Shown one piece after another: positions 2,808 through 49,232 of a stretch of 62,550 bases of DNA. This DNA comes from a virus. The stretch lies in the IMG/VR virus record IMGVR_UViG_3300049793_000080, positions 1 through 62,550 of that record. The stretch is one strand, 5' to 3'. The notes below the pieces were generated by a model. That model was not told where the DNA came from. It saw only the letters and a list, made by a program, of their open reading frames with translations, and made no database searches. Each line of letters opens with the position of its first letter. Position 1 is the stretch's first letter. A program made the translations under genes and the position numbers.

Positions 2808-3223
2808 GCACCACGATGAACCGCGCCGAGAGGCGCAAGGCATCCAAGCACATCGCCCGCGAGAGCAAGAAATTCGATGACGAGTTCGTGGTGGTGCCGA
2901 TCAGCGACGCCATCGCCCCGCCGAACCAGATCCGCGCGCTGCGCAACCGCAAGTTTCTGGTGCAGGAGTTCATGCCGGCCCTGGGCACCGAGGACATGGT
3001 GCTGTGCCGCCTATCCGTCAACATCATCGCCCTGGACGGCGACCAGTGGGTGGACGGCATCGGCTGGGAGGAGCTGCAGCACATCAAAAGCGCGCTCGGC
3101 TACGCGGACATGGAGGCGGTGGAGATTTACCCGCGTGATCGTGATGTCGTGAATGTTGCGGCTATTCGACACATTTTCGTGCTGCGCGGCCTGCTGCCGT
3201 TCACGTGGCGCCGCGGGGTATGA
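2804..3223 (+). CDS. Hypothetical protein (DUF7694-like)
   Basis: A 139-residue protein with a basic N-terminal helix (MNRAERRKASKHIARE) and a mixed alpha/beta body. The segment RNRKFLVQEFMPALGTEDM and the following strands resemble a small phage family annotated DUF7694, though I am not certain. It ends the first early gene block; a 141-base leader separates it from the replication genes. Confidence 0.6.
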   Translation: MSTTMNRAERRKASKHIARESKKFDDEFVVVPISDAIAPPNQIRALRNRKFLVQEFMPALGTEDMVLCRLSVNIIALDGDQWVDGIGWEELQHIKSALGYADMEAVEIYPRDRDVVNVAAIRHIFVLRGLLPFTWRRGV

Positions 3224-3308
3224 ACCCCATTGCGTTGTTCATTGTGGCTCAGCCATAATGAAAGCTGGAACCCCGGCTAGTGGAGGCTTGATCACCTCTG
3301 CGAAAAGC

Positions 3309-3361
3309 GTACTCCCCGCCTGCCGGACGTTCTTTCCTTGGGAGTGCGCGGAGTGCCTTTT
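3309..3361 (+). promoter_or_regulatory. Leader with two competing hairpins before the replication gene
   Basis: GTACTCCC (3309-3316) can pair with GGGAGTGC (3340-3347) or, alternatively, its first seven bases with GGAGTGC at 3350-3356, which is directly followed by CTTTTTAT. The second pairing gives a terminator-like hairpin plus U-tract just before the ATG at 3365. The two pairings exclude each other. The rest of 3224-3308 holds no ORF with a credible start. Confidence 0.35.
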
Positions 3362-3364
3362 TAT

Positions 3365-4201
3365 ATGAAACGTCCAGCGTTCCAGTTCTACACCAAGGAC
3401 TGGCAGACGAATCCGAAGCTGCGTCGGTGTTCACCGGGAGCGCGTGGCGTGTGGATGGACGTCCTGTGCCTGCTGCATCAGTCCGAGGAATACGGCGTCC
3501 TGCGCTGGCCCCTGCGCGAACTGGCCAATGCCGCCGGCTCCTCGATGGCCCACATGCGCGAGCTGATCGACAAGCGCGTTCTCAAGGGAAGCGACGAGCA
3601 CTGCGACCCCTACATTTACACCCCGCGTCACGCCGGAAAGCTGGGCGATCCGGTGGTGCTGCTCGAGGCCACGGATGACCCGTGCTGGTACTGCAGCCGA
3701 TTCCTAAGGGACGAGTGGGTGCGCGGCAGACGCGGCGCAGCGACCCGTTTTGACGAGGAAAATCAGCCACCGACCCGTTCACCAACCGGTCGGGTGGGTG
3801 AACGGCAGGGTGACGGCCCTCCTAACTCCTATTTGCATACTGCTACCTCCGGTATTCCTCAGGGCCCTGCGGGCCCTTCGGAGCCGACGACAAAAAGACC
3901 AAGCCGGAAATGCCCAGAGAGCTTCGAGGTGACTGCTGCACTCGTGGAGTGGGCGAACACCACGGTGCCGAGCATCCCGCCTGACGGCCTGCGCCGGGAA
4001 ACCGACAAGTTCCGCGATCACACGTTCGCGCACAGCATCACCGACTGGCAGGGAGCATGGCGCAACTGGATGCGGCGCGCGGCCGATGGGCGGTCCTATG
4101 CCGGGCACGGAACGGTGAACCGGCAGGAGGCTCAAGAAACCCGAAACCGCGCGGTCGTGGAGGCCGCTTTACGCAAAGGAAATGCCCATGAAGCCGAATG
4201 A
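3365..4201 (+). CDS. Replication initiation protein, O-like
   Basis: The 278-residue protein begins MKRPAFQFYTKDWQTNPKLR. This is the signature of phage replication proteins of the DUF1376/lambda O type, in which an N-terminal winged helix (about residues 1-90: RGVWMDVLCLLHQSEEYGVL...RELIDKRVLKG) binds the origin. A low-complexity linker (about 125-180) leads to a C-terminal helical domain that would contact the helicase loader or helicase. No ribosome binding site is obvious at ATG 3365; in-frame GTG 3353 and TTG 3338 are alternatives. The next gene looks like its partner, and no phage polymerase is present, so replication uses the host replisome. Confidence 0.7.
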   Translation: MKRPAFQFYTKDWQTNPKLRRCSPGARGVWMDVLCLLHQSEEYGVLRWPLRELANAAGSSMAHMRELIDKRVLKGSDEHCDPYIYTPRHAGKLGDPVVLLEATDDPCWYCSRFLRDEWVRGRRGAATRFDEENQPPTRSPTGRVGERQGDGPPNSYLHTATSGIPQGPAGPSEPTTKRPSRKCPESFEVTAALVEWANTTVPSIPPDGLRRETDKFRDHTFAHSITDWQGAWRNWMRRAADGRSYAGHGTVNRQEAQETRNRAVVEAALRKGNAHEAE

Positions 4202-4835
4202 AAAGGCCGAGCTTTTTTCGCTGCTCGGCGACGTCCACGCCTACTACCGGCAGGACGTGAGCGAGTTCACGCTGGAATTGTGGTGGGGCGCGTGCAAGCG
4301 CTTCGACCTGGAGCAAGTGCGCGAGGCGCTGACCGCGCATGCCATGGACCCGGAGCGCGGCCAGTTCGCGCCCAAGGTGGCCGATGTGGTGCGCGTGCTG
4401 GCGGGCACCACCACTGACCGCGCCGCGCTGGCCTGGGGCAAGGCGATGGACGCTATGCGACAGGTGGGCGCCTACCGCGATGTGGTGTTCGATGACCCCG
4501 CCATCCATGCCGTGGTCGAGGACATGGGCGGCTGGCCGAAGCTGTGTCGCACGGAGCTGAAGGAGCTGGGCTTTCGCCAGCACGAGTTCTGCGAGGCGCA
4601 CCGCGCGTACACCGGGCGCGGCAAGTTCGCCTACCCGACGCAACTGCAGGGCGACCGCGACCCGGACCACGAGTACACGCGCCGCGGCCTGTCCGCGCCG
4701 GTGCCCGTGTTGGTTGGGAGCCCGGCCGTGTGCGCACAGGTTCAGGCCGGAGGCGCGGTGGGCGGCAAGACGGCCATCAGTTTCAACGTCGCGGCGCTGC
4801 TGCCCGCACAACTTCGCAATGGAGGTGGAGAGTGA
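4188..4835 (+). CDS. Replication-associated protein, possible helicase loader (DUF6475-like)
   Basis: The 215-residue product follows the O-like gene, overlapping its end. The N-terminal region (LFSLLGDVHAYYRQDVSEF... RFDLEQVREALTAHAMDPER... FAPKVADVVRVL) is a helical domain common in phage genes placed after replication initiators and resembles lambda P-type loaders. The C-terminal third is loosely conserved. I prefer ATG 4188, because AAGGA lies 7 bases upstream; ATG 4182 is too close to it. The loader function is inferred from position and overall pattern, not from a catalytic motif. Confidence 0.6.
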   Translation: MKPNEKAELFSLLGDVHAYYRQDVSEFTLELWWGACKRFDLEQVREALTAHAMDPERGQFAPKVADVVRVLAGTTTDRAALAWGKAMDAMRQVGAYRDVVFDDPAIHAVVEDMGGWPKLCRTELKELGFRQHEFCEAHRAYTGRGKFAYPTQLQGDRDPDHEYTRRGLSAPVPVLVGSPAVCAQVQAGGAVGGKTAISFNVAALLPAQLRNGGGE

Positions 4836-9507: not shown

Positions 9508-9930
9508 ATGATGTTTGAACCCCGCACCGACCTTGTTGCTCCACCGGAGCTGACCGACGATGACCGCGCGTTCTTCGCGAAATCGCACTGCGCCGACAGC
9601 GTTCGTTTTCGCATCCTCACCGAGCGCGCCATCGCGCGCAAGACTGCCCAGGCGCTGATCGCCGCCGGGTTCTTTGTCCGCGTGCATGACGGCGAAGACT
9701 GGGCATGCGAGCGCACCACCAAGCTGCCCGTCATCATGGCCGCCATCATGGCGACGGACGAGGAAACGCTGCACGTGTACCGCGAGGACACTGGCGCCGC
9801 GCGCTACGGGTGGGTGCAGTTCGTGTACGGCAATGGCGGATGGGACGTCACGAGCGACCACACGACGAACCTGGAAGAAGTGCTGCAGCCCGTGAGCGAC
9901 TACGCCGAGCAACTGAGCGCGTGGTGCTGA
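9508..9930 (+). CDS. Hypothetical protein
   Basis: This 140-residue alpha/beta protein is the first gene after the terminator-promoter pair. The segment RKTAQALIAAGFFVRVHDGE (about residues 45-64), followed by a beta-rich half ending GWVQFVYGNGGWDVTSDHTT, suggests a single compact domain. Codon use is like its neighbours. The function is unknown. Confidence 0.65.
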   Translation: MMFEPRTDLVAPPELTDDDRAFFAKSHCADSVRFRILTERAIARKTAQALIAAGFFVRVHDGEDWACERTTKLPVIMAAIMATDEETLHVYREDTGAARYGWVQFVYGNGGWDVTSDHTTNLEEVLQPVSDYAEQLSAWC

Positions 9931-9932
9931 AC

Positions 9933-10841
9933 ATGATGGCCACATTCAATCCCAAAGCGCCGGAGGACGCCCAGCGTTTCTCCGGCGGCTTCGATGACAT
10001 GCAGGACGACGACCTGGGCGCAGCGGCCCCGGCCGCTGGCGCACCTGCAGCGCCGCGCAAGGTGTACGTCGAGCAGTGCGGCAAGTGCCACGGCACCGGC
10101 CGCTACCACGGGCCCAGCTCGCGCGGCAGCGATTGCTTCGAGTGCCACGGCCAGGGCAATCACACGTACACCACCAGCCCCGAGCAGCGCGCCGCAGCAC
10201 GCGAGCGCGCAGCCGCCAAGAAGCAGGCGCTGCTCGACGCGAAGTGGTTGAAGTGGGCCGCGCTCCACGAGAACGAGGCCGGCTGGATCTTGGCCAACAT
10301 GGAGAGCAACGACTTCGCGCGCGCCATGCGCATCGCCGCGGGCAAGTGGGGATCGTTGACCGATGGCCAGTTGCGCGGCGTGCATCGCTGGATGCTGACC
10401 GACGAGGACCGCGCCGCCGAGCGCATGCGCGCCGAGCTGACGGCCAAGCCGGTCAACACCGTCAACCTGGGCGCGGTGGAGACGGCGTTCAACCGCGCGA
10501 AGTCGCAGGGCATCAAGTGGCCCAAGCTGACGCTCGACGGCTTCACCATCAGCATGGCCGGCGCCGCGAGCAAGAACCCGGGCGCGATCTACGTGAAGCA
10601 GGGCGCGCGCGATGGCACCTACCTGGGCAAAGTGCTGAACGCCGGGTTTCAGCGCTCGCGTGACTGCGACGACGCCACCGAGGCGGCCGTGCTCGCTGCG
10701 ATGGCCGACCCGCTGGCCAGCGCCGTGGCCTACGGCAAGAAGTTCGGGCGGTGCGCCGTGTGCCACCGCGAGCTGAGCGACCCGGAAAGCATCGCTCGAG
10801 GCATCGGCCCCATTTGCCAAGACAGATTGTTCGGAGGCTGA
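9933..10841 (+). CDS. Zinc-finger protein (DnaJ-type finger plus DUF6011)
   Basis: The 302-residue protein has an N-terminal DnaJ-like finger (residues 46-76: CGKCHGTGRYHG then CFECHGQG). A helical middle follows (about 85-190), then a beta-rich domain (VNTVNLGAVETAFNRAKSQG...). It closes with a C-terminal treble-Cys module of the DUF6011 type, GRCAVCHRELSDPESIARGI and GPICQDRL. Zinc binding and nucleic-acid contact are likely. Two ATGs (9933, 9936) and two upstream GTGs are possible starts. No enzymatic motif is visible. Confidence 0.7.
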   Translation: MMATFNPKAPEDAQRFSGGFDDMQDDDLGAAAPAAGAPAAPRKVYVEQCGKCHGTGRYHGPSSRGSDCFECHGQGNHTYTTSPEQRAAARERAAAKKQALLDAKWLKWAALHENEAGWILANMESNDFARAMRIAAGKWGSLTDGQLRGVHRWMLTDEDRAAERMRAELTAKPVNTVNLGAVETAFNRAKSQGIKWPKLTLDGFTISMAGAASKNPGAIYVKQGARDGTYLGKVLNAGFQRSRDCDDATEAAVLAAMADPLASAVAYGKKFGRCAVCHRELSDPESIARGIGPICQDRLFGG

Positions 10842-10842
10842 C

Positions 10843-11091
10843 ATGGCAACACCGAACGAATATCTTGCAGCCCGCGAGGCCGCCCAGGACGACAGCCTGC
10901 CGTTGGCTGGCACGGTGCTGGTGCGCGAGGTGAGCCAGTACGGCGTGTGGGTGCTGCAGCCGGCCAACAAGCTGGCCCGCGCCGTCCTGACGCTGACCGG
11001 CAGGAAGACGATCACGGCGACGGACACGGGCGCGCTCAAGGCGATGGGCTTCACTGTGCAAACAACGGGCGAGAGCCCAAGGAGACTTTGA
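10843..11091 (+). CDS. Small hypothetical protein
   Basis: An 82-residue beta-rich protein (GTVLVREVSQYGVWVLQPAN, ARAVLTLTGRKTITATDTG), one base after the zinc-finger gene and overlapping the next start by one base. The function is unknown. Confidence 0.6.
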   Translation: MATPNEYLAAREAAQDDSLPLAGTVLVREVSQYGVWVLQPANKLARAVLTLTGRKTITATDTGALKAMGFTVQTTGESPRRL

Positions 11092-11441
11092 TGGCCAAGA
11101 AGATCGGAGAGTTTCAATCGACGCGCTGGTGCGTCGTGGACGTGGTTCAGTCGACGTATCTCTCGGCGGATGGGCCCACGGCCATCCTGCTGGAATCCGG
11201 CGAGCACGGGCCGCTGTGCAGGCTCAGCGTGAATATGTACCGCCCGGACTGCTCGCAGGACTCGCGCGAGCTGCCGCCCAACTGCTTCTACATGAAGGAC
11301 TGGGGCCAGGAGGATCTCGCGGCCGAGGCGCAGGCCAGCGGCTTGTTCAAGCTGCGCACGGACCTTGCGCCCGCCGAGAGCGGCCACGTCCAGGCGCAGG
11401 CGTGGGAAATCATTGCGACGAAGAAGGCGGGCTGGCCGTGA
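11091..11441 (+). CDS. Hypothetical protein
   Basis: A 116-residue alpha/beta protein starting at ATG 11091 with AAGGAG just upstream. It contains RWCVVDVVQSTYLSADGPTA and NCFYMKDWGQED. It is coupled to the next gene by GTGA. No family is recognised. Confidence 0.6.
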   Translation: MAKKIGEFQSTRWCVVDVVQSTYLSADGPTAILLESGEHGPLCRLSVNMYRPDCSQDSRELPPNCFYMKDWGQEDLAAEAQASGLFKLRTDLAPAESGHVQAQAWEIIATKKAGWP

Positions 11442-35975: not shown

Positions 35976-38900
35976 ATGGACATCACCGCGGCACGCAGCT
36001 TGCCCGAACTCGCCGGCCTGGACGACGATCAGATCGTTGACGCACTCCATCAGGCCTATTACCCCGACCTCCCCCGAGATGAAGTAGCCAAGTCGCTTGG
36101 CATCAAGCCCACGGCCGCGCCGCGCCCGGAGACGACCTGGGGCGACCGTGCGAAGGACACCGGCATCAGCTTGCTGCAAGGCGCCGTGGCGGTGCCCCAG
36201 GCGGCGGTGGGCGTTGCGGATCTGGTGACCGGCGGCGCGGCGGGCAAGCTGGCCGAGGATGTCGGGTTCCGACCGAAAGAGGCGACCGACTTCCTGGGCG
36301 AGCGCTTGAGCGACGCGCAGAAGGGCGCGAACAAGGAAGTGCAGGACGCCGAGGGCTTTTGGGGCACCTTCAAGGCCGCCGTCTCCAATCCTTCGGTGGT
36401 GTTCCAGTCGGTGGTGCAGTCGCTGCCTTCCATGGGCGCGGGCGGCGTGGTGGCGCGCGGCGTGCTGGGCGCGAGCATGACGCCGCGCCTGCTGGCCAAG
36501 CTGTCGGCCATGGCCCCCGAGGCGCGCGAAGCCGCCATCCTGGGCATGCAGACCACCGCCGGCGCCGTGGGCGAGGGCGCCGTGCAGGCCGGCAGCGCCG
36601 CCGAACAGGCGCGCACCGACAACCCGCTGGGCACGCTGGACGGCAAGGGCGCGCTGTCGGCCGTGGCCAGCGGTGTGGGCGACACCATCATCGCCCGGTT
36701 CAGCGGGCGCCTCGCCAACAAGCTGGGCATCGCGGACGCGGACACCATGCTCGCTGGCGCCGCGGTGAACCCGCGCGCGGCCAAGAGCGTGGTGAAGGCC
36801 GCGCTCGGCGGCATGGTGACCGAGGGCTTGCTCGAGGAACTGCCGCAGTCGGTGCAGGAGCAGGTGTGGCAGAACCACGCAGCCGGCCGCCCGCTCGATG
36901 AGGGCGTGAATCAAGCCGCCGTGCTGGGCATGCTGTCCGGCGCGGCGATGGGCGGCGGTGCCAACCTTCTGAACGCGGCTCGAAAGCCGAAGCCCGACGA
37001 CATCCTGAACGCGCCGGACGTCGACGCCGCGCTGCAGACCGCGCAGGACGCGCTCCTGTTGCCCCCGCCGACGATCAGCGTCACGCTGGGCGGTACCGCC
37101 GTCACGCCGGAGCAGCGCGCGGATCTGGTGCAGCAGGAAATCACGCGCCGCGCCGCCGGCATGATGGGCGGCGAGGACGTCACCGATGTGCAGGCCAAGG
37201 GCACGCCGCCGGTGGAAGTGCCTCCGACGACGCCACCCTCGACCCCCCCAGCCTTCCCGGACCCGTTCAGCGCCGCCAAGCCGGTGGACCTGGACGCGAA
37301 CGAAGCGCGCATGCACCGCGACGCCGACCGCGACGCCCAGGCGCTCAAGGAGCACGACCCGCTGACCCTGCCGCGCAAGGGTCTGCCGGAGCTGGACGCC
37401 GAGTACGGCAAGGGCGAGGGCGACACGATCCAGAAGAACGGCGCGCCGTGGCCCAGCGAAGCGGCGGCGATGCTGTCGCTCAAGATGGCCAAGAAGAAGG
37501 GCCGCGCCGTGCCGGTGGCCGGCGGCTTCATCGCGCGACCGAACAAGGAGACACCCAATGCAGCGCCCACCCCTGAAAACAAGCCTGACGGCGCTCGCGG
37601 CGCACAGCCTGCTGCAGCAGCACCGGCCACCGACGCCGCCACTGCCCAGCGACCCGACGATCAGCATGGAGGACTTCCTGCGCCCGACACGGGAATTGCA
37701 GGCGGCAGTGCGGCGGCTGTCGCGACCCAGCCCGCGCCCGGCGGGCAAGTCGTGGGCGCAGGCGACGCTGCGCGCACACCTGGAGACGGTGTACTACGGC
37801 CAGTCAATGACGCGGCTGTGGATGGAAGAGATGAACGGCCAGCCGATGGCCGAGCGAGTGGACCCGTATCCGCACCCGTGGCAGCGGGAGCAAATGACGC
37901 GGGAACAACTACTGGCGCTGCAAAAACCGGAAGTGAGCAATCACTAACCGAAGCTGGCGCGCAATGGACCCGCATGACGGAAATCGAGCGCCGCGCCGTT
38001 GCGGGCCGCACGGCAGGTAAGGCGAAGGCGCTAGATCGCATCGTCTCGCAGAAGTGGGAAGACCTACATTCCGGCTGGCAGAAATCCCTCGCGCGGGTGA
38101 TGAACACGCCCGGCGCGCCGATTGCTCCACGTGAAACGTCAGCGCCCACTTCGCACCCAACCGCCAGCGCAGGTCCGCGCGTCATCATCAATCGGCTCGG
38201 CCCTGATGGTCTAACCGACGCCGAGCGCGCGGCTGGCAAGCCGTCCTATGCCGACAAGCCCGCCGAGGTGACGAGCGAGACGGCGCGACGCGGCGATTTC
38301 AACGTCAAGAACCACCTGGGCAAGATGGAGCGCGCGACCGTGACCGAGGGCGGCACACGCGGCCGGTTCGCCGTCAAGATCGGCGGCGAGTCCATGGGCC
38401 AGTTCCAGATGGACGACCAGGGCGCGGTGAGCCGCATCGAGGCGCGCGCCAACTGGGCCGAGGATTCCGTGCGTGACGCGGCGATGCAGTTCGTCGCGCA
38501 GGAGCGCGCCAAGACGGCACCGGCCGCCGCCGAGCAGCCGCGCGACCAGGACACCGGGCAGTTCGCGGAAGCCCCGGCCGACACGCTCCCCGCTGGCGTG
38601 CGTCGCCGCGAGAAGGGTGTGGCAAACACCAAGGCGCGCATCGCAGCCGAGGCGGCCCGCGCGGCGTACTTCACGCCCGGCAACGTGGTGCGCGGCTATG
38701 GCGGCTTCGATGAGGTGCTTGCGTACAACCCGCCCACCGAGCCCGGAGGCGCATGGAGCGTGCGCGTGCACGAAGTCAAGGAAGCCACGCCCAACAACTG
38801 GGTGCGCGTGGGCCGCCCCCAGGACGCGCGACAGCACAGCACCGAGCCGGAGGAGCGCGAGCTGCGCAACGGGCCGCGCGCCCAGTTGTCGGCCCTGCCC

Positions 38901-41900
38901 GCCAGCGAAGTGCCGTACACCGTGCCGCGTGCCGATGGCAAGGTGCACCCGGATGCCGAGCCGCGCAGCAACCCGCGCGCCGCAGCCGAGCCCGCCAAGA
39001 TCGTGACCGACAAGGCCGAGATTCGCCCATACCGCCGCTCGGACGGCAGCGTGGGCTACGAGGCCGTGCCGATCCAGCCGCCGGCCGCGCCGAATGACGA
39101 ATTGATCGTTCAATCCATTCGACCCGGCTCCAAGCCGCACGTTGTCAAGGTGGAGCCTGCGCCCGCCGCTAGCACAAACAAGGTGTTCACCGACGAGATG
39201 GCCGCCGCAGCGCGCGCCCGCCTCAAGGCCAAGCTGGGCCGGCTGAATTCGCTGCTGGACCCGCAGGACATGCTCGACGGCATCACGCTGGCCGGCTACC
39301 ACGTCGAGAAGGGCGCGCGCAGCTTCGCCGCCTTCGCGCAGGCCATGCTCGCGGATCTTGGCGAGGGTGTGCGCGCCCACCTCAAGAGTTTTTACATGGG
39401 CGTGAAGTATTCGCCCGCCGCGGCCGAGTTCTCCAAGGACATGAGCAGCGCCGCGTTCGTGGAGGAGTTCGACCTGTCGCATATCGCGGCGCCGTCCGAC
39501 ACGGACACCCTTGAAACTCAGCCGCCCGCGGCAGATACTGGAGCCAATGATGGAAGCAGCAGCCCAACACTCGACGTGGATCGCGCAGGCCCGGGGCCAC
39601 TGGAAGGAGCACCTTCCGGGGATGTACGCGCGCCTGCAGGAGAGCGGAAAACTGGAGACGGCACTGGCCGAAGCAGCGACGGCGACCAGCGAGGGGATGC
39701 ACGCCCTGATGCAGCAGGGGGCAACGTGGCAGGAGGCGTGGGAGCAGGTGCGGGAACAGTACCTGTTTCCACCGGAGGAGCCGAGCAAGGAAAAGGCCCC
39801 GCCAAGCCAAGGGTACCGCGTACACCGCGAGCTGATGGCGGGCCTGGGCTCTTTGACGATGCCGGGGGAACGGGAGGAGTAAACCCGGCCCCGAACGCCG
39901 CGCCCACGCCGGCGCCGCAGTTCAAGCCGTCCGAGGACTTCACCATCGAGGATGACCTCGCGCTGGGTGACGGCGGCGAGAAAACCAAGTTCAAAAACAA
40001 CGTGGCGGCGATTCGCCTGTTGCGCGAGCTCGAAGCGGCCGACCGCATGGCGACACCCGACGAGCAGCGCACGCTCGCCCAATACGTGGGCTGGGGCGCC
40101 TTGTCCAAGGCATTCGACGCTGACCGCGCGGAATGGGCCAAGGAGCACGCCGAGCTCAAGGATCTGCTGTCGCCCGAGGAGTTCGCCGCAGCGCGGCAAT
40201 CCACCCGCTACGCGCACTACACCAGCCGCCAGATCATCCAGGACGGCGTTTATGCCGCGCTGCATCACTTCGGCTTCACCGGCGGGCGCGTGCTCGAGCC
40301 GGGCGCCGGCGTGGGCAACTTCATCGGCATGATGCCCGCCGACATGCGCAGCGCGGGCCGCATCACGGCCATCGAGCGCGAGCCCATCGCCGCCGGCATC
40401 GCCAAGAACCTGTACCCGCTGCAAAACGTGCAGCAGGCCGACTTCACCGCGTTCAAGGGCACCGATGGCTATTTCGACGCGGTGGTGGGCAACCCGCCGT
40501 TCGCCTCCGACCCGCAGACCGACACCAGCGGGCGCAAGCACCTGGGCGGCCTGACCCTGCACAACTACTTCTTCGCCAAGAGCGTGGACCTGATGCGCGA
40601 GGGCGGGATCTTGGCGCAGGTGGTGACCAACTCGTTCATGGACGCGGCCGGCGACCGGGCCCGCAAGTACATCAGCGACCGCACCAAGCTGATGGGAGCC
40701 ATCCGCCTGCCGAACAACGCATTCAGCAAGAACGCGGGCACCGAGGTGACGACCGACATCATCTTTCTGCAAAAGCGCCCGGAGGCCGAGTGGGGCAACA
40801 AGGCGACGCGCCAGGAAGCCAAGGCGTGGCTGGACGTGGTGAAGCAGACCGACCGGCGCAACGGCGGGCAGTACAACCTCAACCAGTATTTCATCGACCA
40901 CCCGGAGATGATGCTCGGCGACTTCGGCGCGCACGGCACGATGTACGGGCCCAACCAGCCGGCGCTCATCGCCCGGCCGGGGCAGGACACGCTCGCACTG
41001 CTCCGCGAGGCGGTGCAGCGCCTGCCGGGCAATGTGTTCGTGGACCGTGCGGTGCTCGGCACCGACGCGGCCATCGAGAACGCCACCAAGGCCCTGACGA
41101 ACCCGCCGGTGCAAGAGGGCGGCTTCTATGTCGAGGGCGACAAGCTGATCCAGCGCGTACCCGACATTGCCGGCGAGCCGCGCGGCCGGGAAATCAACGC
41201 CGCAACGCAGTGGACTGCCAAGACGCCGCTGGGGGAGGCGGGCTACCAGAAGATCCGCGCGCTCACGCAGATGCGCACCACGCTGCGCGGACTGCTGGCG
41301 GCCGAATTGTCCGGCGACAAGGACATGGACGCCCTGCGCACGACGCTGGGCAAGCAGTACGACGACTACACCAAGGCGCACGGCCTGCTGGGCGACCCGG
41401 GCACCGCGCGCGTCTTCGATGACGACCCGGATTTCCCGCTGCTGCTGTCCCTGGAGCACGAGTACCGGCCCGGCATCGGCATGGCCGCGGCCAAGCGCCA
41501 GGGCATCAAGCCGACCAAGAGCGCGGCGAAAAAGGCGCCGATCTTCATGCGCCGCGTGGTCGACGCGCGCAAGCCGGTGCAGAAGGTGGAGACGCCCGCC
41601 GACGCGCTGGCCGTCTCGATGGCCGAGCGCGGCAAGCTCGATACCGTCTACATCGGCCAACTGCTCGGCAAAGACCCGCAGGAGGTGTTGAAGGAGCTGA
41701 GCACCGGCGACAAGCCGCAGCTGTTCCTGGACCCGGCGACCGACGAATACGCGCTGCGCGACGCCTACCTGTCGGGCAACGTGCGCGCGAAGCTGGAGCA
41801 GGCCAAGCAGTCCGGGCTGAGCATGAACGTGCGCGAGCTGGAGAAGGTGCAGCCCGAGGACGTGGGCGCGCATGAAATCTCGGCGCGCATCGGCTCGCCG

Positions 41901-44900
41901 TGGGTGCCCACCAGCGTCTACGAGGACTTCGCCAAGGAATTGTTCGGCGAAGGCTCGACGGCCCGCGTGCACTACATGGCGCTCAATAGCTCGTACACGA
42001 TCAGCACGTCCGGCACCAACGAGGTGAACACCACCAACAAGTGGGGCACGCCGCAGTACTCCGGCCCGGAGCTGATGTCCGCGCTGCTGAACAACCGCAC
42101 CATCCGCGTGATGCACCCGAAGGTGGGCGACACGCCGGCGTCGCTGAACGTGGAGGCCACCGATATGGCCAACACGAAGGCGCAGGAAATCCGCGACCGC
42201 TTCCAGGATTGGCTCTTTGCCGAGCCGGAGCGTTCCGAGCTGCTCGTGCGCACGTACAACGACACGAACAACAACTACGTGACGCGCAACTATGACGGCT
42301 CGTGGATGACGTTTCCGGGCAAGGTGCCCAATTCCGTGTTGCCGGGCGACGGCGGCATTTCGTTTCGCCGCCACCAGCGCAACGCCATCGCGCGTATCGT
42401 GCAGGACCGCACCGCGCTGCTCGACCACGTAGTCGGCGCTGGCAAAACCTTCACCATCGTCGCCGCGGCAATGGAGCTGCGCCGCACCGGGCTGGCCAAG
42501 AAGCCGCTCGTGGCCGTGCCGAACCACCTTGTGAAGCAGTGGGCCGCCGACTTCTACCGGCTGTACCCGGGCGCCAACATCCTCACGGCCACGAAGAAGG
42601 ACTTCGAGAAGGTCAACCGCCGCCGCTTCCTTGCCAAGATCGCAACGGGCGACTGGGACGCCGTGGTGATCGCGCACAGCTCCTTCGGCTTCATCAAGCC
42701 GGGCGCGGAATTCGAGGCCGAGTTCAACGAGCGGCAGGTGAAGATGATCATGGACACCATCGCCGCGGTGCAGGACGGCGATGGTGAGAAGGCGCAAAAG
42801 AAACGCACCGTCAAGCAACTCGAGGGCATGAAGGAGCGGCTGCAAAACCGCATCAAGAGCCTGCGCGACAAGGCGATGGACGACCTGCTGGACTTCGAGC
42901 AGCTCGGCGTCGATCAACTGTTCGTTGACGAAGCCCACATGTTCAAGAACCTGATGTTCACCACGAAGATGCAGGGCGTCTCAGGGCTGGGCGATGGGTC
43001 GGGCTCGCAGCGCGCCTACGACATGTACGTGAAAAGCCAGGAGGTGCTGGAGAAGAACGGGCGCGGCCAGGGGCTGGTGTTCGCGACCGGCACGCCAGTG
43101 TCCAACTCGCTGGGCGAGAAGTACCACATGATGCGGTACCTCATGCCCCGGCAGATGGAAGAACTGGGCTTCCAGTCGTTCGACGCCTGGGCCAACACCT
43201 TCGCCGCCGTGCAGCAGGTGTGGATGCAGAAATTCAGCGGCGACGGCTACAAGCCGCAAAACCGCATGAGCGATTTCGTGAACGTGCACGAGCTGCTGAA
43301 AATGTTCGATCAGGTGGCCGACACGGTGACGCTGGACGACATCAAGAAGGCGTACAAGGAGGAGAACAACGGCGAGGAGTTCCCGATCCCGCGCGTGAAG
43401 ACCGGGCGGCGCCAGCCGGTCAGCCTGGAGAAGTCGGCCGCGCAGATCGCCTACATGGAGCACATTGCCGCGCGCGCCAAGATCCTCGAAGCGCGCAGGG
43501 GCCCGCCGCGCAAGGGTGATGACAACGCGCTGGTGATCATGGGCGACGCACGCAAGGCGGCGATGGACATTCGCCTGATCAGCCCGGCCAAGCTGCGCAA
43601 GGCCATCGGCTATGACGTGGACGGCCGCGACCCGGGCGGGCGCATCGACCGCAGCGCGCAGGAAATCCACCAGCGCTATCAGCAGTGGAACCACGTGAAG
43701 GGCACGCAGCTGGTGTTCGCGGACCTGGGCACGCCCGTCGAGCACGCGGCCACCGAGTTGAAGGAGTACGAGGCGCTGATGGAGCGCATCAACGCCGCGA
43801 CCGATGATGTTCGCCTGCGGGCCGAGCTTGGGGCGGAAGACGCACTGGTGATCGTGAATGATGCCGAGGACGCGCAAGCCGACATCGACGTGAAGGGCCA
43901 GGACTGGCTCGACGGCATCGAGGCGGCGCAACGCGGGTTCAGCATCTACGACGACTTGAAGGCGGCGCTGATCGAGCGCGGCATGCCCGAGGACCACATC
44001 GCGTTCATCCACGACTACGGCAACGATGAACGCAAGGCGACGCTGTTTCGCAAGGTGAACGCGGGCGACATCCGCGTGCTGATCGGCTCCACCGCGAAGA
44101 TGGGCGCTGGCACCAACGTGCAGGAGCGCATCGTGGCCGAGCACCACCTGGACGTGCCGTGGCGCCCGAGCGACGTGGAGCAGCGCGAGGGCCGCATCGA
44201 GCGCCAGGGCAATAGCCTGCTGTGGACGCCGCAGAACCCGAACGGCATCAAGGACTTCGAGGTGGAAATCTTGGCCTACGTGACCAAGGACACCCTGGAC
44301 ATGCGCATGTGGCAGATCCAGGAGGTGAAGCTCAAGATGATTCACCAGCTGCGCACGCGGCAGATTTCGCGCGACATCGACAACGCTTTCGAGGACATGG
44401 AAATGTCGGCCGGCGAGATGCAGGCCGCGGCGACCGGCAACATGGACCTGTTGCGCGAGATTCAGGCGCGCAGCGATATCAAGAAGCTGGAGCAGAAAAA
44501 GCGCAGCTTCGACGCCCAGCGCTCGGACCTCATCAACCGCAAGAAGCGCGCCGCCGAAAAGCTCGCGCAGCTGCCCGCGCAAATCAAGGGAGCCGAGGTG
44601 TTGGCCGAGGGCTCGCGGGAGTACCGCAAGGCACTGGAGGACAACGCCGAGAGCTTCAAGGTCACCATCGACGGCAAGGACTTCACCGACCGCCATCTGG
44701 CCAGCGCCTACCTGCTGGACAAGATCGACGGCAAGATTTACGTGCGCACGGTGGAAAAGGACGGCAAGAAGCTGCGCGAGGAAATCAGCGCCGAGCAGTG
44801 GGCCGCGCTGCCCACCGGCGACGAGCGTGCGTTCTATGACCCGAAGGCCGCGCCGCTGGACCTGACCATGAACGGCGATCTGTTCACCGCCCGCGCAAAG

Positions 44901-47900
44901 CTGCAGGAGGCGTGGAGCAACGTCGCGGGCGACCGCGAGCCCATCGTGTGGGAGTACCAGGGCAAGACATTCAACCGGCGCACCGCGCTGGCCGTGGCGC
45001 AGCGCCAAGCCGTGGCCGACGCCGTGGCAGACGAGAAGGAAGTGGACCTGGGAAAAGTCGGCCCGTTCGCGGTGACGGCCGAAGGGCAGACCGGCAAGTG
45101 GGGCAAGTTCCTGGACGTGGTGATGACGTACAAGGGCCGCAAGATCGAGGGCGACATCGGCGTGCCCGAGGGCGACGTCTCCACGCAACTGGCCGAGCGG
45201 ATGGCGTCTTGGGCCAGCCGCAAAGCCGAGCACGCGGCCGATGACCTGCAATACCTGAAAGGCGACCTCGAGCGCGCGCAAAAGCAGAAGGCCGAGCTCG
45301 ACGCGGCCGACGATGTGGGCGACGTGTGGCCCGAGCAGAGCAAGCTGGAGGAAGCGCGAAACCGCCACAAGGCCATCCTCGCGCGTCTGGGCGGCCAGAA
45401 GGACGCGCCGCCAGCCACCGGCGACGAGCCGGCGTTCGGGCAGGGCGCAGCCACCGGCGGCATGAGCCCCGCGCTCGCGCAGCACGCGGCCGACACGGTG
45501 GCATCCGTGTGGGACAACGCGCCGCAGATCGTGGCGCTGCCCTCCATCGCGCGCGCACCGCAGAAGGTGCAGGACGACGCACGCCGGCGCATGGAGCGCG
45601 GCGGCGGCAAGCCCAAGGCCGTCTTCTATGACGGCACGGTGTACCTGTTCGCTGACGCGCTGGCCAGCCCGGCCGAGGCGGTGGAGTACACCTATCACGA
45701 AGTCCTGGGTCACTTCGGCATGCACGGGCACCTTGGCCCCGAGTTGGACAAGGAATTGAAGGCCGTCGCCACGCTGCGCAAGGAAGACATCAGCGCGATG
45801 TACGAGCGCACCGGCAAGGAGCGCAGCGCCGCGATGGATCTGCGCATGGCCGAGGAGGTGGTGGCCTACATGGCGCAGACCAAGCCCGAGCTGTCGCTGG
45901 TGCGCCGCGTCATCGCTGCCATCAAGAACTTCCTGCGCGACCACGTGCCGGGCTTCGGCTCGCTGAACATGAGCGACGCGGACATCATCCAGAAATTCGT
46001 ATTACCTGCTCGCCAGTTCGTGGAGGGCGCCCCAACGGACCCGAATGGCGGCGGCGAGTTCGATCCTGCGTTCGGTCAAGCGCGAGGCTTGAATTCACGA
46101 GAAATCCAGGTCAATGGAAAGTGGAGGCCCATCGAGACGGCCGGCGGCGAACTGATCGCGCCCACGTTCCATGGGCAAAGCGAATTTTGGAAAAAGCACG
46201 CCGACGCCTTCGCGCTGGATGACAAGGGCCGGCCGAAAGCAACGCCGGCAGAAATCAAGGCGCTGATGGGCGACAACCCTGACGATGCGATGTTCGCCCA
46301 GGGTGCGCCGCTGAACGATCCGCGCGCCTTGTGGGGACGCGCCAAGCAAAGCCTTGCGGACATGAGCAGCGCGCCGGGCACGATGCACTGGTGGAATAAA
46401 AGCATTGGCACGGAATATCACCTTGCGCAGAAGTACCCGGCGTTCAAGGCCGTGTTCGACCGCGTGCAGGACTTCATCAACGACTCCAGCCTGTACGCCA
46501 ACGAGGCGGCCGATCTAGCCCGCACCATCCTGCCGAAACTAGAGGGCTGGCGCGATGTGGTCCCGAAGCTGCTGGGCGGGAGCGGCAAGTCGCCTATTTC
46601 TGCCGCGTTCAATCGGCAGATCCAGGCGCCCATCAACGAGGGGACGCTGATCTGGACGCGCGGGGAGGACGGCAAGCCCGTGCGAGTAGATGAGTTGGAG
46701 AAGGCTGCCGACAAGATGAGCGCCGACCAGAAGGCGCAGGCCATGTTGCGCGCGGGCAAGCTGCCTGAGAGCGTGTTGAAAATGTGGCGCGGCCTTCCGC
46801 TGGATCAGTACCAGCAGGCCGTCTCCACTGCCTACAAGAACCGGATGTTGACCCCGGGCATCGTGTGGACGGACGCGGAGTTGCGCGAGAAATTCGGACT
46901 CGGCGCCGCACAGATCGCCCTGTACCGCGAGTTCCGCGCCGCGGTGGACCGCAGCATCACGCAGCTCGCCGTGAGCGACTTGGTGCGCTTTGTCGGGCAG
47001 GATGGCGACTTCATCCGCGATCAGGTGCTGGCTGCGCCGGATGTGATGACGGCCGCCAAGATGCTCGTGCAGCAGATCGACCAGCTTATCGTGGACAACC
47101 CCGAGCGGCAGGACGTTCTCAACGACACGGCCGCCAAGGTCAAGTTGAAGGCCGACAAGGCGCATGAACTGATCCAGCGCGGGTATGCCCCGCTGTCTCG
47201 CTTCGGGCACTACACGATCACCGTTCGGGCAAAGAGCGATGACGGCGAGCCCGGCGAGGTGCTGTACTTTGGCATGTACGAGAGCCGCCCGGAAGCCGCG
47301 AAGGCTGCGCGGCAGCTCGCCGCGGAAGAAGACTTCCAAGGCGCAACGCTGGTGCGCGGCACGATCAGCCACGAGCAATACAAACTGTTCGCCGGCGTGA
47401 ACCCCGACACCATTGAGCTGTTCGGAGAAATGCTCGGCCTGGAGGGCGCGGGCAATGCAGCATCCGATCAGGCGTTCCAGCAGTTCTTGAAGTCGGCGCG
47501 CAGCAACCGCAGCACGATGAAGCGGATGATTCATCGCAAGGGCACGGCGGGATTCTCCGAGGACGTTCCGCGCGTGCTGGCGTCCTTCCTTTACAGCAAC
47601 GCACGCCAAGCCAGCCGGAACCTGCACTCTCTGGAAATCGACCGCATGGGCAACGAGATTGCGCAGGCAGAGGGCGAGTTGAAGGATCATGCCGTCAAGC
47701 TGATCGACTACGTGAAGAACCCCGTGCAGGAGGCGCATCAGTTGCGTGGACTGCTATTCGCGCAGTTTCTTGGCGGGAGCATCGCATCCGCCATGGTCAA
47801 CATGAGCCAGCCCTTCATGATGACGCTGCCCTACCTGTCGCAGTTCGGTGCACGCGAGGCCGTCTCGAATTTCAAGTGGGCGTTGCTTCACGGATGGAAG

Positions 47901-49232
47901 GACACCACTGGCGACCCGACCTTGGACGCGGCGATCAAGCGGCGCGTGGAGGACGGCACCATCGCGCCCCATGAAGTTCATCAACTCCTTGCGCAATCGC
48001 TGGGCAAGGCCGAACTGAAATCAGGCGACGGCACGCTCACCGGCGATGCGGCGGCACAGGCGAATAACGCGCTCGCGCGGCTGCAGCTCGGATGGGGAAA
48101 GTTCTTCTCGACCGCCGAGCTTTTCAATCGGCGCGTCACCTACGTGGCCGCCTACCGCCTCGCCAAAGAAAAGAAGATGGCCGACCCGGACGCCTTTGCC
48201 AAGAAGGCGGTGGACGAGAGCCAGGGCGTTTACAACAAGGGCAACAAGCCTGTATGGGCCCGCGGCGCGGTGGGCAGTGTCGCGATGACGTTCAAGCAGT
48301 ACAGCATCGCGTACTTGGAGTTCGTCGCGCGCATGTGGACCGCAGGAGAGCCGGGAAGCCCGGAGCGAGCGGCCGGTCAGCGCGCGGTGTACTTCGCTGC
48401 CGCCATGCTGCTGATGATGGGCGGCGCCGGCGGCCTGCCGTTTGAAGACGATGTGGCCGATGTGGTGGACGGCATCATGCAACGCCTGGGCTACAACTGG
48501 AACACGAAGCAAAAGCGCCAGGAGATGCTGGAGAAGGCATTCGGTCGCGGCTTCGGGCACGTGCTGGAGAAGGGTGTTTCTGGTCTGCCGGGCGTGCCGA
48601 TTGATGTCGCCGGCCGCTTCGGTATGGGCAACCTCATCCCCGCCACCGGGCTGCTGCAAAAGAAGGCCGATCACACCAGCGACGTTCTGGAAATCGGAGG
48701 CCCGGCCGCGAGCCTCGCCAAGCGATTCTTCCAGGCCAGCAACCTCGCGGCGGAAGGCCGAATCGTGGACGCCGGCTTGCTGGCCTCGCCGGTCGCCGCG
48801 TCCAACATCGCCAAGGCCATCGACATGGCATCGAGCGGTATCTACAAGGACAGTGCGGGCAAGAAGGTGATGGACGTCGACGGCTGGGATGCCATGTCGA
48901 AACTGATCGGGTTCCAGCCTTCTGCCGTGGCGCGCGTCCAAGATGCCGACCGATCCGCGCAGGTGATGGTGGAGCAGGTGAAGATGCGCGAACGGGAAAT
49001 CTCGCAGCAGTGGGCGCAGGCGCTTGCTGACGGGGATCGGGATGGTGCGACCAAGGCGCGCGAAGCCATCGCGGCGTGGAATGCCAAGAACGAGGACACC
49101 CCCATAAAAATCAAACTTGGAGATGTGCTGCGCCGCGCGAAAAACATGCGAATGGATCGCGCGACGCGCATCGAGAAAAGTGCGCCAAGCGAAGTTCGCG
49201 GAACCGTTCGGGAAATGCTGCGCGAACCGTAG
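35976..49232 (+). CDS. Giant polyvalent virion protein (DarB-like methylase/helicase, zincin, PLxRFG)
   Basis: The single 4,418-residue ORF makes up over a fifth of the genome. Visible modules in order are as follows. The N terminus resembles structural ejection proteins, with GMMGG at about 395. Low-complexity linkers lie at about 520-660 and 1190-1305. An N6-adenine methylase is marked by VLEPGAGVGNF (about 1437) and NPPF (about 1506). A SNF2/superfamily 2 helicase has Walker A GAGKT (about 2153), DEAH in VDEAHMFKN (about 2315) and QREGRIERQG (about 2733). A zincin-like HEVLGH lies at about 3240 and the PLSRFG signature at about 3738; a helical C-terminal region follows. Phage P1 DarB, with methylase and helicase domains, protects incoming DNA from type I restriction, and Bcep22-type phages carry a virion-borne counterpart of about 4,600 residues. 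Ejection with DNA, entry and restriction protection are the likely roles. Two ORFs are nested in its +1 frame. Confidence 0.9.
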   Translation: MDITAARSLPELAGLDDDQIVDALHQAYYPDLPRDEVAKSLGIKPTAAPRPETTWGDRAKDTGISLLQGAVAVPQAAVGVADLVTGGAAGKLAEDVGFRPKEATDFLGERLSDAQKGANKEVQDAEGFWGTFKAAVSNPSVVFQSVVQSLPSMGAGGVVARGVLGASMTPRLLAKLSAMAPEAREAAILGMQTTAGAVGEGAVQAGSAAEQARTDNPLGTLDGKGALSAVASGVGDTIIARFSGRLANKLGIADADTMLAGAAVNPRAAKSVVKAALGGMVTEGLLEELPQSVQEQVWQNHAAGRPLDEGVNQAAVLGMLSGAAMGGGANLLNAARKPKPDDILNAPDVDAALQTAQDALLLPPPTISVTLGGTAVTPEQRADLVQQEITRRAAGMMGGEDVTDVQAKGTPPVEVPPTTPPSTPPAFPDPFSAAKPVDLDANEARMHRDADRDAQALKEHDPLTLPRKGLPELDAEYGKGEGDTIQKNGAPWPSEAAAMLSLKMAKKKGRAVPVAGGFIARPNKETPNAAPTPENKPDGARGAQPAAAAPATDAATAQRPDDQHGGLPAPDTGIAGGSAAAVATQPAPGGQVVGAGDAARTPGDGVLRPVNDAAVDGRDERPADGRASGPVSAPVAAGANDAGTTTGAAKTGSEQSLTEAGAQWTRMTEIERRAVAGRTAGKAKALDRIVSQKWEDLHSGWQKSLARVMNTPGAPIAPRETSAPTSHPTASAGPRVIINRLGPDGLTDAERAAGKPSYADKPAEVTSETARRGDFNVKNHLGKMERATVTEGGTRGRFAVKIGGESMGQFQMDDQGAVSRIEARANWAEDSVRDAAMQFVAQERAKTAPAAAEQPRDQDTGQFAEAPADTLPAGVRRREKGVANTKARIAAEAARAAYFTPGNVVRGYGGFDEVLAYNPPTEPGGAWSVRVHEVKEATPNNWVRVGRPQDARQHSTEPEERELRNGPRAQLSALPASEVPYTVPRADGKVHPDAEPRSNPRAAAEPAKIVTDKAEIRPYRRSDGSVGYEAVPIQPPAAPNDELIVQSIRPGSKPHVVKVEPAPAASTNKVFTDEMAAAARARLKAKLGRLNSLLDPQDMLDGITLAGYHVEKGARSFAAFAQAMLADLGEGVRAHLKSFYMGVKYSPAAAEFSKDMSSAAFVEEFDLSHIAAPSDTDTLETQPPAADTGANDGSSSPTLDVDRAGPGPLEGAPSGDVRAPAGERKTGDGTGRSSDGDQRGDARPDAAGGNVAGGVGAGAGTVPVSTGGAEQGKGPAKPRVPRTPRADGGPGLFDDAGGTGGVNPAPNAAPTPAPQFKPSEDFTIEDDLALGDGGEKTKFKNNVAAIRLLRELEAADRMATPDEQRTLAQYVGWGALSKAFDADRAEWAKEHAELKDLLSPEEFAAARQSTRYAHYTSRQIIQDGVYAALHHFGFTGGRVLEPGAGVGNFIGMMPADMRSAGRITAIEREPIAAGIAKNLYPLQNVQQADFTAFKGTDGYFDAVVGNPPFASDPQTDTSGRKHLGGLTLHNYFFAKSVDLMREGGILAQVVTNSFMDAAGDRARKYISDRTKLMGAIRLPNNAFSKNAGTEVTTDIIFLQKRPEAEWGNKATRQEAKAWLDVVKQTDRRNGGQYNLNQYFIDHPEMMLGDFGAHGTMYGPNQPALIARPGQDTLALLREAVQRLPGNVFVDRAVLGTDAAIENATKALTNPPVQEGGFYVEGDKLIQRVPDIAGEPRGREINAATQWTAKTPLGEAGYQKIRALTQMRTTLRGLLAAELSGDKDMDALRTTLGKQYDDYTKAHGLLGDPGTARVFDDDPDFPLLLSLEHEYRPGIGMAAAKRQGIKPTKSAAKKAPIFMRRVVDARKPVQKVETPADALAVSMAERGKLDTVYIGQLLGKDPQEVLKELSTGDKPQLFLDPATDEYALRDAYLSGNVRAKLEQAKQSGLSMNVRELEKVQPEDVGAHEISARIGSPWVPTSVYEDFAKELFGEGSTARVHYMALNSSYTISTSGTNEVNTTNKWGTPQYSGPELMSALLNNRTIRVMHPKVGDTPASLNVEATDMANTKAQEIRDRFQDWLFAEPERSELLVRTYNDTNNNYVTRNYDGSWMTFPGKVPNSVLPGDGGISFRRHQRNAIARIVQDRTALLDHVVGAGKTFTIVAAAMELRRTGLAKKPLVAVPNHLVKQWAADFYRLYPGANILTATKKDFEKVNRRRFLAKIATGDWDAVVIAHSSFGFIKPGAEFEAEFNERQVKMIMDTIAAVQDGDGEKAQKKRTVKQLEGMKERLQNRIKSLRDKAMDDLLDFEQLGVDQLFVDEAHMFKNLMFTTKMQGVSGLGDGSGSQRAYDMYVKSQEVLEKNGRGQGLVFATGTPVSNSLGEKYHMMRYLMPRQMEELGFQSFDAWANTFAAVQQVWMQKFSGDGYKPQNRMSDFVNVHELLKMFDQVADTVTLDDIKKAYKEENNGEEFPIPRVKTGRRQPVSLEKSAAQIAYMEHIAARAKILEARRGPPRKGDDNALVIMGDARKAAMDIRLISPAKLRKAIGYDVDGRDPGGRIDRSAQEIHQRYQQWNHVKGTQLVFADLGTPVEHAATELKEYEALMERINAATDDVRLRAELGAEDALVIVNDAEDAQADIDVKGQDWLDGIEAAQRGFSIYDDLKAALIERGMPEDHIAFIHDYGNDERKATLFRKVNAGDIRVLIGSTAKMGAGTNVQERIVAEHHLDVPWRPSDVEQREGRIERQGNSLLWTPQNPNGIKDFEVEILAYVTKDTLDMRMWQIQEVKLKMIHQLRTRQISRDIDNAFEDMEMSAGEMQAAATGNMDLLREIQARSDIKKLEQKKRSFDAQRSDLINRKKRAAEKLAQLPAQIKGAEVLAEGSREYRKALEDNAESFKVTIDGKDFTDRHLASAYLLDKIDGKIYVRTVEKDGKKLREEISAEQWAALPTGDERAFYDPKAAPLDLTMNGDLFTARAKLQEAWSNVAGDREPIVWEYQGKTFNRRTALAVAQRQAVADAVADEKEVDLGKVGPFAVTAEGQTGKWGKFLDVVMTYKGRKIEGDIGVPEGDVSTQLAERMASWASRKAEHAADDLQYLKGDLERAQKQKAELDAADDVGDVWPEQSKLEEARNRHKAILARLGGQKDAPPATGDEPAFGQGAATGGMSPALAQHAADTVASVWDNAPQIVALPSIARAPQKVQDDARRRMERGGGKPKAVFYDGTVYLFADALASPAEAVEYTYHEVLGHFGMHGHLGPELDKELKAVATLRKEDISAMYERTGKERSAAMDLRMAEEVVAYMAQTKPELSLVRRVIAAIKNFLRDHVPGFGSLNMSDADIIQKFVLPARQFVEGAPTDPNGGGEFDPAFGQARGLNSREIQVNGKWRPIETAGGELIAPTFHGQSEFWKKHADAFALDDKGRPKATPAEIKALMGDNPDDAMFAQGAPLNDPRALWGRAKQSLADMSSAPGTMHWWNKSIGTEYHLAQKYPAFKAVFDRVQDFINDSSLYANEAADLARTILPKLEGWRDVVPKLLGGSGKSPISAAFNRQIQAPINEGTLIWTRGEDGKPVRVDELEKAADKMSADQKAQAMLRAGKLPESVLKMWRGLPLDQYQQAVSTAYKNRMLTPGIVWTDAELREKFGLGAAQIALYREFRAAVDRSITQLAVSDLVRFVGQDGDFIRDQVLAAPDVMTAAKMLVQQIDQLIVDNPERQDVLNDTAAKVKLKADKAHELIQRGYAPLSRFGHYTITVRAKSDDGEPGEVLYFGMYESRPEAAKAARQLAAEEDFQGATLVRGTISHEQYKLFAGVNPDTIELFGEMLGLEGAGNAASDQAFQQFLKSARSNRSTMKRMIHRKGTAGFSEDVPRVLASFLYSNARQASRNLHSLEIDRMGNEIAQAEGELKDHAVKLIDYVKNPVQEAHQLRGLLFAQFLGGSIASAMVNMSQPFMMTLPYLSQFGAREAVSNFKWALLHGWKDTTGDPTLDAAIKRRVEDGTIAPHEVHQLLAQSLGKAELKSGDGTLTGDAAAQANNALARLQLGWGKFFSTAELFNRRVTYVAAYRLAKEKKMADPDAFAKKAVDESQGVYNKGNKPVWARGAVGSVAMTFKQYSIAYLEFVARMWTAGEPGSPERAAGQRAVYFAAAMLLMMGGAGGLPFEDDVADVVDGIMQRLGYNWNTKQKRQEMLEKAFGRGFGHVLEKGVSGLPGVPIDVAGRFGMGNLIPATGLLQKKADHTSDVLEIGGPAASLAKRFFQASNLAAEGRIVDAGLLASPVAASNIAKAIDMASSGIYKDSAGKKVMDVDGWDAMSKLIGFQPSAVARVQDADRSAQVMVEQVKMREREISQQWAQALADGDRDGATKAREAIAAWNAKNEDTPIKIKLGDVLRRAKNMRMDRATRIEKSAPSEVRGTVREMLREP
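37558..37947 (+). CDS. Nested ORF A in the +1 frame of the giant gene
   Basis: This 129-codon ORF lies entirely within the giant gene, whose own frame here encodes a disordered Ala/Gly/Asp/Pro linker. An ideal Shine-Dalgarno AAGGAG (37545-37550) lies 7 bases before ATG 37558. From Met 37 onward the product looks like a real protein (MEDFLRPTRELQAAVRRLSR, TLRAHLETVYYGQSMTRLWM, then PYPHPWQREQMTREQLLALQ), with aromatic residues and mostly G/C third bases in this frame. The protein is not recognised. Independent expression is likely but unproven. Confidence 0.6.
   Translation: MQRPPLKTSLTALAAHSLLQQHRPPTPPLPSDPTISMEDFLRPTRELQAAVRRLSRPSPRPAGKSWAQATLRAHLETVYYGQSMTRLWMEEMNGQPMAERVDPYPHPWQREQMTREQLLALQKPEVSNH
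39547..39882 (+). CDS. Nested ORF B in the +1 frame of the giant gene
   Basis: This 111-codon ORF is in the same +1 frame as ORF A and again lies over a disordered linker of the giant protein. CTGGAG (39538-39543) is 6 bases before the second ATG (39550). The product looks well ordered (HSTWIAQARGHWKEHLPGMY, ARLQESGKLETALAEAATAT, GATWQEAWEQVREQYLFPPE) and is helical, with many Trp and charged residues. That is unlike a random shadow frame, which in this genome gives Arg/Pro/Ala runs. I recall similar small phage/bacterial hypothetical proteins ending in REQYLxPPE, but no function. Confidence 0.65.
   Translation: MMEAAAQHSTWIAQARGHWKEHLPGMYARLQESGKLETALAEAATATSEGMHALMQQGATWQEAWEQVREQYLFPPEEPSKEKAPPSQGYRVHRELMAGLGSLTMPGEREE

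Follow-up and report, generated by a model that had tools for sequence, protein, structure and literature searches.

The virus record IMGVR_UViG_3300049793_000080, classed as "linear" and analysed here over its 62,550 nucleotides (the window), includes a 13,257-bp gene, 21.2% of the record, coding for a single chain with a methylase, a helicase, a zincin-like domain and a PLxRFG module. This organization raises the question of whether the protein works as one chain or is cut by its own zincin and, if so, where. The idea that the zincins of phage polyvalent proteins act upon the chain they belong to dates from 2017, when Iyer et al. (PMC5512222) published the zincin-like core of polyvalent MPTases, including the HEXXXH set, and proposed self-processing or host targets for them. 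P1 DdrB is their example of processing, and the N4 virion RNA polymerase, packaged uncut despite its zincin, is the counter-example and counts against self-cleavage (PMC5512222). The candidate sites described here, which recur in dozens of distinct relatives and are altered in the lineage of this phage, make self-processing a specific and testable proposal. If this holds, it accounts for the delivery of several separate activities into the cell by a single packaged chain.

Organization of the giant gene

The initial annotation had described one gene of 4,418 residues filling about 21% of the DNA and combining an N6-methylase, a SNF2-type helicase and a PLxRFG signature, and all of these observations were confirmed (Table 1). 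The G+C content at codon positions 1/2/3 is 0.68/0.46/0.86, which is coding-like for a GC-rich phage. Two minus-strand ORFs, 38211-42938 (1,575 codons) and 42981-45944 (987 codons), cross the gene, and because of the 86% G+C at third positions these long antisense frames are most likely an artefact. PHROG 10089 (DarB-like antirestriction) matched the protein with 1935 bits, the best stretch being residues 1204-2917; Pfam Eco57I, ResIII, SNF2-rel_dom, MTS and N6_Mtase exceeded their cut-offs, and NCBIfam NF032893 (PLxRFG) covered residues 3736-4405 with an E-value of 1.3e-182 and 608.9 bits against a curated cut-off of 100 bits. Judged from these sequence matches, the modules are far beyond chance. 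The chain fuses an N6-adenine methylase with NPP(Y/F) to a SNF2-type SF2 helicase, as DarB-like (PHROG 10089) proteins do, and has unrelated enzymatic domains in one chain beside virion genes, as is characteristic of phage polyvalent proteins; on these features it can be considered a DarB-like polyvalent protein of known overall design.

Table 1. Location of the giant gene, its modules, motifs and candidate cleavage sites in the window
Feature	Coordinates	Strand	Residues	Evidence or remark
Giant polyvalent gene	35976..49232	+		4,418 aa, 477 kDa, ATG start
N-terminal module	36102..36989	+	43-338	phrog_30335 E 3.3e-71; blastp
Uncharacterised conserved domain	39018..39470	+	1015-1165	phrog_938 positions 1920-2070 of 2185, E 1.2e-31
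N6-adenine methylase core	40278..40865	+		Pfam Eco57I 1487-1578, MTS 1435-1556, N6_Mtase 1496-1603
NPPF	40491-40502	+	1506	of methylase
SNF2-type helicase	42357..44210	+		Pfam ResIII, SNF2-rel_dom, Helicase_C
GAGKT	42435-42449	+	2154	within helicase
DEAH	42927-42938	+	2318	within helicase
Candidate cleavage site 1, PAFGQ	45429..45443	+	3152-3156	F 87 residues before HEVLGH
HExxxH zincin-like domain	45462..46040	+	3163-3355	48-domain alignment, AlphaFold2, phrog_14770
HEVLGH	45696-45713	+	3241	within zincin-like domain
Candidate cleavage site 2, PAFGQ	46065..46079	+	3364-3368	F 125 residues after HEVLGH
Candidate cleavage site 3, AMFAQ	46287..46301	+	3438-3442	just before C-terminal module
C-terminal PLxRFG module	46392..49229	+	3473-4418	NCBIfam NF032893
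PLSRFG	47190-47207	+	3739	within C-terminal PLxRFG module

The N-terminal module is common to F116 p59, 8P, USP_25, Y7 and Y11. The domain at residues 1015-1165 is present in other giants too; the family that it matches, phrog_938, carries the name endolysin, and the match is limited to the short part of that family given in Table 1. In an alignment with ten relatives retrieved by the helicase query, conservation is highest in the methylase-helicase, of which RM.BsaXI is the sole PDB sequence relative at E ≤ 0.001. The C-terminal module was modelled as mostly helical (pLDDT 76.3) and had no fold match by Foldseek or VIA (best Z 5.1). A membrane-spanning reading was dropped, as no 19-residue stretch of the whole protein reaches a mean hydropathy of 1.6. 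The protein is a mosaic: its methylase-helicase part is nearest to the VvAW1/Itty13-type giants (about 41% identity), and its C-terminal module to F116-type Pseudomonas phages (about 48%). At the DNA level, searches of the phage collection for near and for distant relatives gave no match. Elsewhere, the plus-strand ORF 9705-10841 (378 aa) includes DUF6011 together with a segment that bears a weak likeness to multihaem or DnaJ zinc motifs.

The Bcep22-type counterpart to which the initial annotation pointed was found in JC1 gp69 (4,515 aa) and BcepIL02 gp70 (4,667 aa), which share the NPPF methylase, the GAGKT helicase and a place before the lysis genes, with about 33% identity in the methylase-helicase; virion association is documented for JC1 gp69 (PMC9144972). 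The likeness does not extend to the zincin, since the HExxH motif that occupies the corresponding slot in them is HEAFH, nor to the PLxRFG module, to which they had no blastp match. The F116/8P-type Pseudomonas PLxRFG proteins have a C-terminal module 47-49% identical to that of the giant protein, a related N-terminal module and an FSR motif before the C-terminal module, but differ in carrying HExxH twice (HELQH plus HEMIH or HEMTH) in place of HEVLGH and, for F116, in being split over two genes, unlike the single-chain giant. Residues about 521-683 of F116 p60, between two FSR-type motifs, resemble an ADP-ribosyltransferase, and the giant protein seems to retain no more than a short stretch of similar appearance, residues about 3372-3430. 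The comparison with P1 DarB stands, as it too pairs a methylase with a helicase and acts in antirestriction (PMC9024508, PMC5512222), although it has 2,255 aa and is without HExx(x)H. The HEXXXH polyvalent MPTases share with the giant protein the HEXXXH motif, the zincin-like core and the polyvalent context (PMC5512222).

The zincin-like domain

The metallopeptidase-like site HEVLGH is present, but it is HExxxH, with three residues between the E and the second H, and not a classical HExxH. The domain matches phrog_14770 over residues 3169-3350 (E 9e-21). An alignment of 48 zincin domains that are less than 75% identical by an ungapped measure has H79, E80, H84, E131 and E132 invariant, the two last being the EE at residues 3293-3294, and was used as input for AlphaFold2, which gave a model with mean pLDDT 90.2 and pTM 0.77. 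The model consists of a helix (3-14), three strands (22-26, 53-56 and 59-63) and two helices (70-85 and 123-140), with HEVLGH (79-84) on the first of these two and the two glutamates on the second. Structure prediction, proposed as a check with the initial annotation, thus put HEVLGH in the active-site helix, and the combination of HEXXXH, a downstream Glu helix and a three-stranded sheet with an N-terminal helix makes the predicted topology confidently zincin-like. Assignment to the published HEXXXH MPTase clade was by motif and topology only.

Foldseek with the zincin model returned nothing at E ≤ 0.001, with N4 vRNAP gp50 ranking fourth and sixth at E near 1. VIA-align against solved structures gave low Z scores (best 5.7); many of the matches listed were metallopeptidases (selecase, abylysin, M61, M1, IrrE, collagenases and lugdulysin), most of them aligning with the portion that has HEVLGH at its end. 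The best E-value of the zincin profile against PDB sequences was 0.55, and Pfam gave nothing credible on all 48 domains, DUF6504 being commonest (12 of 48, best E 0.0014). The zincin region had no tblastn match in 50,697 phage records, either as 279 aa or as 205 aa with a looser E-value, and the 279-aa region as sole query for related loci yielded 14 pattern stretches, none of them confirmed. Relatives were retrieved when the alignment was the query: the family is large, viral contigs having 296 relatives, of which 80 were kept, and genome contigs 56 relatives in 55 loci, many labelled Burkholderiales. Among the columns conserved to 80% or more, the zincin of this phage departs from consensus at 24, a number tied for second among the 48. 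One relative (L027) has tandem HExLGH zincin domains in one ORF, at 9995-10573 and 10667-11245, with a PAYSRP copy between them.

Protease position among relatives

We defined the slot as the region between the helicase and the C-terminal module or ORF end. Among 56 ORFs with a matching helicase, 34 of them distinct, HExx(x)H was found in the slot of 31 of the 34, where shuffles expect 1.28; without the seven loci that came from the zincin query the count was 25 of 27. There were 35 matches per 35,419 residues inside the slot versus 4 per 114,407 outside. The three ORFs without it were those of Atu_ph08, PBC5 and L135. L135 has its zincin on the next, overlapping ORF, and the zincin/C-terminal part is on a separate ORF in both F116 and L135. 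The methylase-helicase and zincin frames of L135, on a contig of a Methylophilaceae MAG, share 17 bases (9785-9801), which could be a natural gene split or a frameshift.

A second sample, obtained with the C-terminal module as query (318 stretches, 296 relatives, 80 kept, 51 distinct ORFs), had HExx(x)H upstream of the PLxRFG module in all 51 distinct ORFs (1.7 expected) and in 79 of all 80, always within 1,000 residues upstream and in none of the 51 inside the module. The motif was HEx(L/A/V/G)GH in 27 of the 51 and of other forms in 24. As read from these sequences, the protease slot is retained while the zincin that occupies it differs, which we count as new.

A linker motif at module edges

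The sequence [PA]-x-F-S-R, absent from the initial annotation, repeats at the zincin edges and ahead of the PLxRFG module far above controls. Among 55 distinct HExLGH domains, a loose form, [FY][SGA][RKQ], was found upstream in 30, downstream in 38 and on both sides in 23. A profile was trained with no sites other than 46 from the downstream edge (77 distinct ORFs, with the phage under study excluded). At a score of 12 it gave 127 matches in 233,403 residues versus 5.2 in shuffles; 47 were at the trained place, 23 before the module, 17 at the upstream edge and 40 elsewhere. This downstream-edge profile found the pre-module site at 29 of 37 GYAPLxRFG anchors, and the motif at a score of 9 in 36 of 51 ORFs of the second sample (1.07 expected), some contigs of which are shared with the first sample. 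Its density was 54 per 100,000 residues in giants versus 1.9 in 1,722 control ORFs (both strands), where some of the matches look like giant fragments. JC1 and BcepIL02 have DGARFSV 133 residues after HEAFH. The closest helicase relative of the giant protein (L008, 88% identical there) has FSK at both zincin edges and is without the PLxRFG signature; the C-terminal module of L008, which lies in the 3' part of its giant ORF, has apparently been exchanged. The motif strings were not found in the literature searched (outside subscription journals and supplementary files), nor was the linker or FSR motif found by a term search of the main text of PMC5512222. The candidate cut sites appear to be new and the overall protein design already known; the new element is the evidence from motif and slot.

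At the three corresponding places the giant protein has no F-S-R and has instead PAFGQ, PAFGQ and AMFAQ, which we consider candidate self-cleavage sites on the basis of position and motif. The two PAFGQ copies are coded by CCG GCG TTC GGG CAG and CCT GCG TTC GGT CAA; having three synonymous differences and identical residues, they are not a fresh duplication.

Possible self-processing and its alternatives

The giant gene lies downstream of terminase, portal, major head protein and tail-like genes and upstream of endolysin and spanin, and JC1, BcepIL02, PEp14, 8P and F116 have the equivalent gene in the same place. JC1 gp69 was detected by mass spectrometry in CsCl-purified virions with 51 unique peptides and 15.6% coverage (PMC9144972), and an N-terminal signal brings P1 DarB into the capsid (PMC9024508). 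Because the gene place matches and the JC1 homologue is in virions, the giant protein is likely to be packaged as well. We favor, with a probability of roughly one half for the explanation as a whole, a late-expressed, probably virion-packaged DarB-like protein that would enter the cell with the phage DNA. Its methylase-helicase part, by analogy with P1 DarB, would shield the incoming DNA from restriction, the helical PLxRFG part may serve packaging or ejection, a role suggested by context alone as the module has no fold match, and the HExxxH zincin would cut the chain near residues 3154 (PAFGQ), 3366 (PAFGQ) and 3440 (AMFAQ). The products would be an antirestriction part of ~340 kDa, a zincin of ~23 kDa, a spacer of ~8 kDa and a PLxRFG part of ~107 kDa. 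Of the earlier suggestion that the zincin could cut its own protein, ejection partners or a host target, the first part has thus gained candidate sites, the idea itself being already published (PMC5512222); as an interpretation it is partly supported.

Several results count against self-cleavage. Only 15 of 77 zincins have an upstream-edge motif that scores above threshold, although an FRR form is also present at this edge (10 sites); VvAW1, Itty13 and LASTA, with other HExxH zincins, have no profile match at 9 or more, and neither does P1 DdrB, the sole protein for which processing is reported and taken as positive control, at 7 or more. The Foldseek and VIA-align results on the zincin model (no PDB match at E ≤ 0.001, best Z 5.7) and the serine codon bias given below weigh in the same direction. 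Departures from SR are mostly not common to the sites of one protein. A count of matched changes per protein, which excluded the downstream site of this phage as below the score cut, gave 2 non-SR pairs versus 0.24 permuted (p 0.015, 49 proteins) and was set aside as too thin. P1 DdrB also has loose matches to LSR, at 218 and 720, which were judged to be chance.

The zincin could instead work in trans once ejected, its target being a host protein or some other protein of the virion, with the linker motif unrelated to it. Iyer et al. list this alternative (PMC5512222), and several zincin types in one slot would be expected if substrates vary by host; but the motif brackets the zincin and the module borders in non-random places, and a host-directed protease has no need of a repeated motif in its own chain, so that we regard this explanation as unlikely. 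Equally unlikely, in our opinion, is that the motif was left behind by module shuffling, as a short linker spread with the domains by duplication or recombination and with no role for the protease. The FSR serine is AGC or AGT (AGY) in 99 of 111 sites versus a background of 44% across those ORFs, with 54 of the 111 being TTCAGCCGC alone, a bias which indicates that the motif copies share ancestry and which keeps this alternative alive. There are, on the other hand, 24 distinct FSR codings, and a linker acting at the DNA level would not need the two PAFGQ copies to keep their residues across three synonymous differences, nor a Q at the third site also.

We consider even less probable that the fold is structural or nearly inactive and is retained for packaging. 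N4 virion RNA polymerase cannot be encapsidated without its MPTase-containing region, yet the protein is uncut (PMC5512222), the extra residue of HExxxH demands a bend to place both histidines, and the domain of the giant protein strays from the conserved columns more often than do most of the 48 members. The residues presumed to be ligands (H, E, H and E), through which the domain would bind metal, are nevertheless invariant across these divergent domains, and HExxH and HExxxH types both occupy the slot.

Motif and zincin may have diverged together in this phage, the sites from F-S-R to F-G/A-Q at three places; a coordinated change of this kind would account for the variant sites as well as for the departures of the zincin from consensus. 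Extended tentatively to the whole group, this would make PLxRFG-type polyvalent proteins true polyproteins in which an exchangeable zincin, its slot being fixed, cuts its short cognate motif at the module borders, both diverging together.
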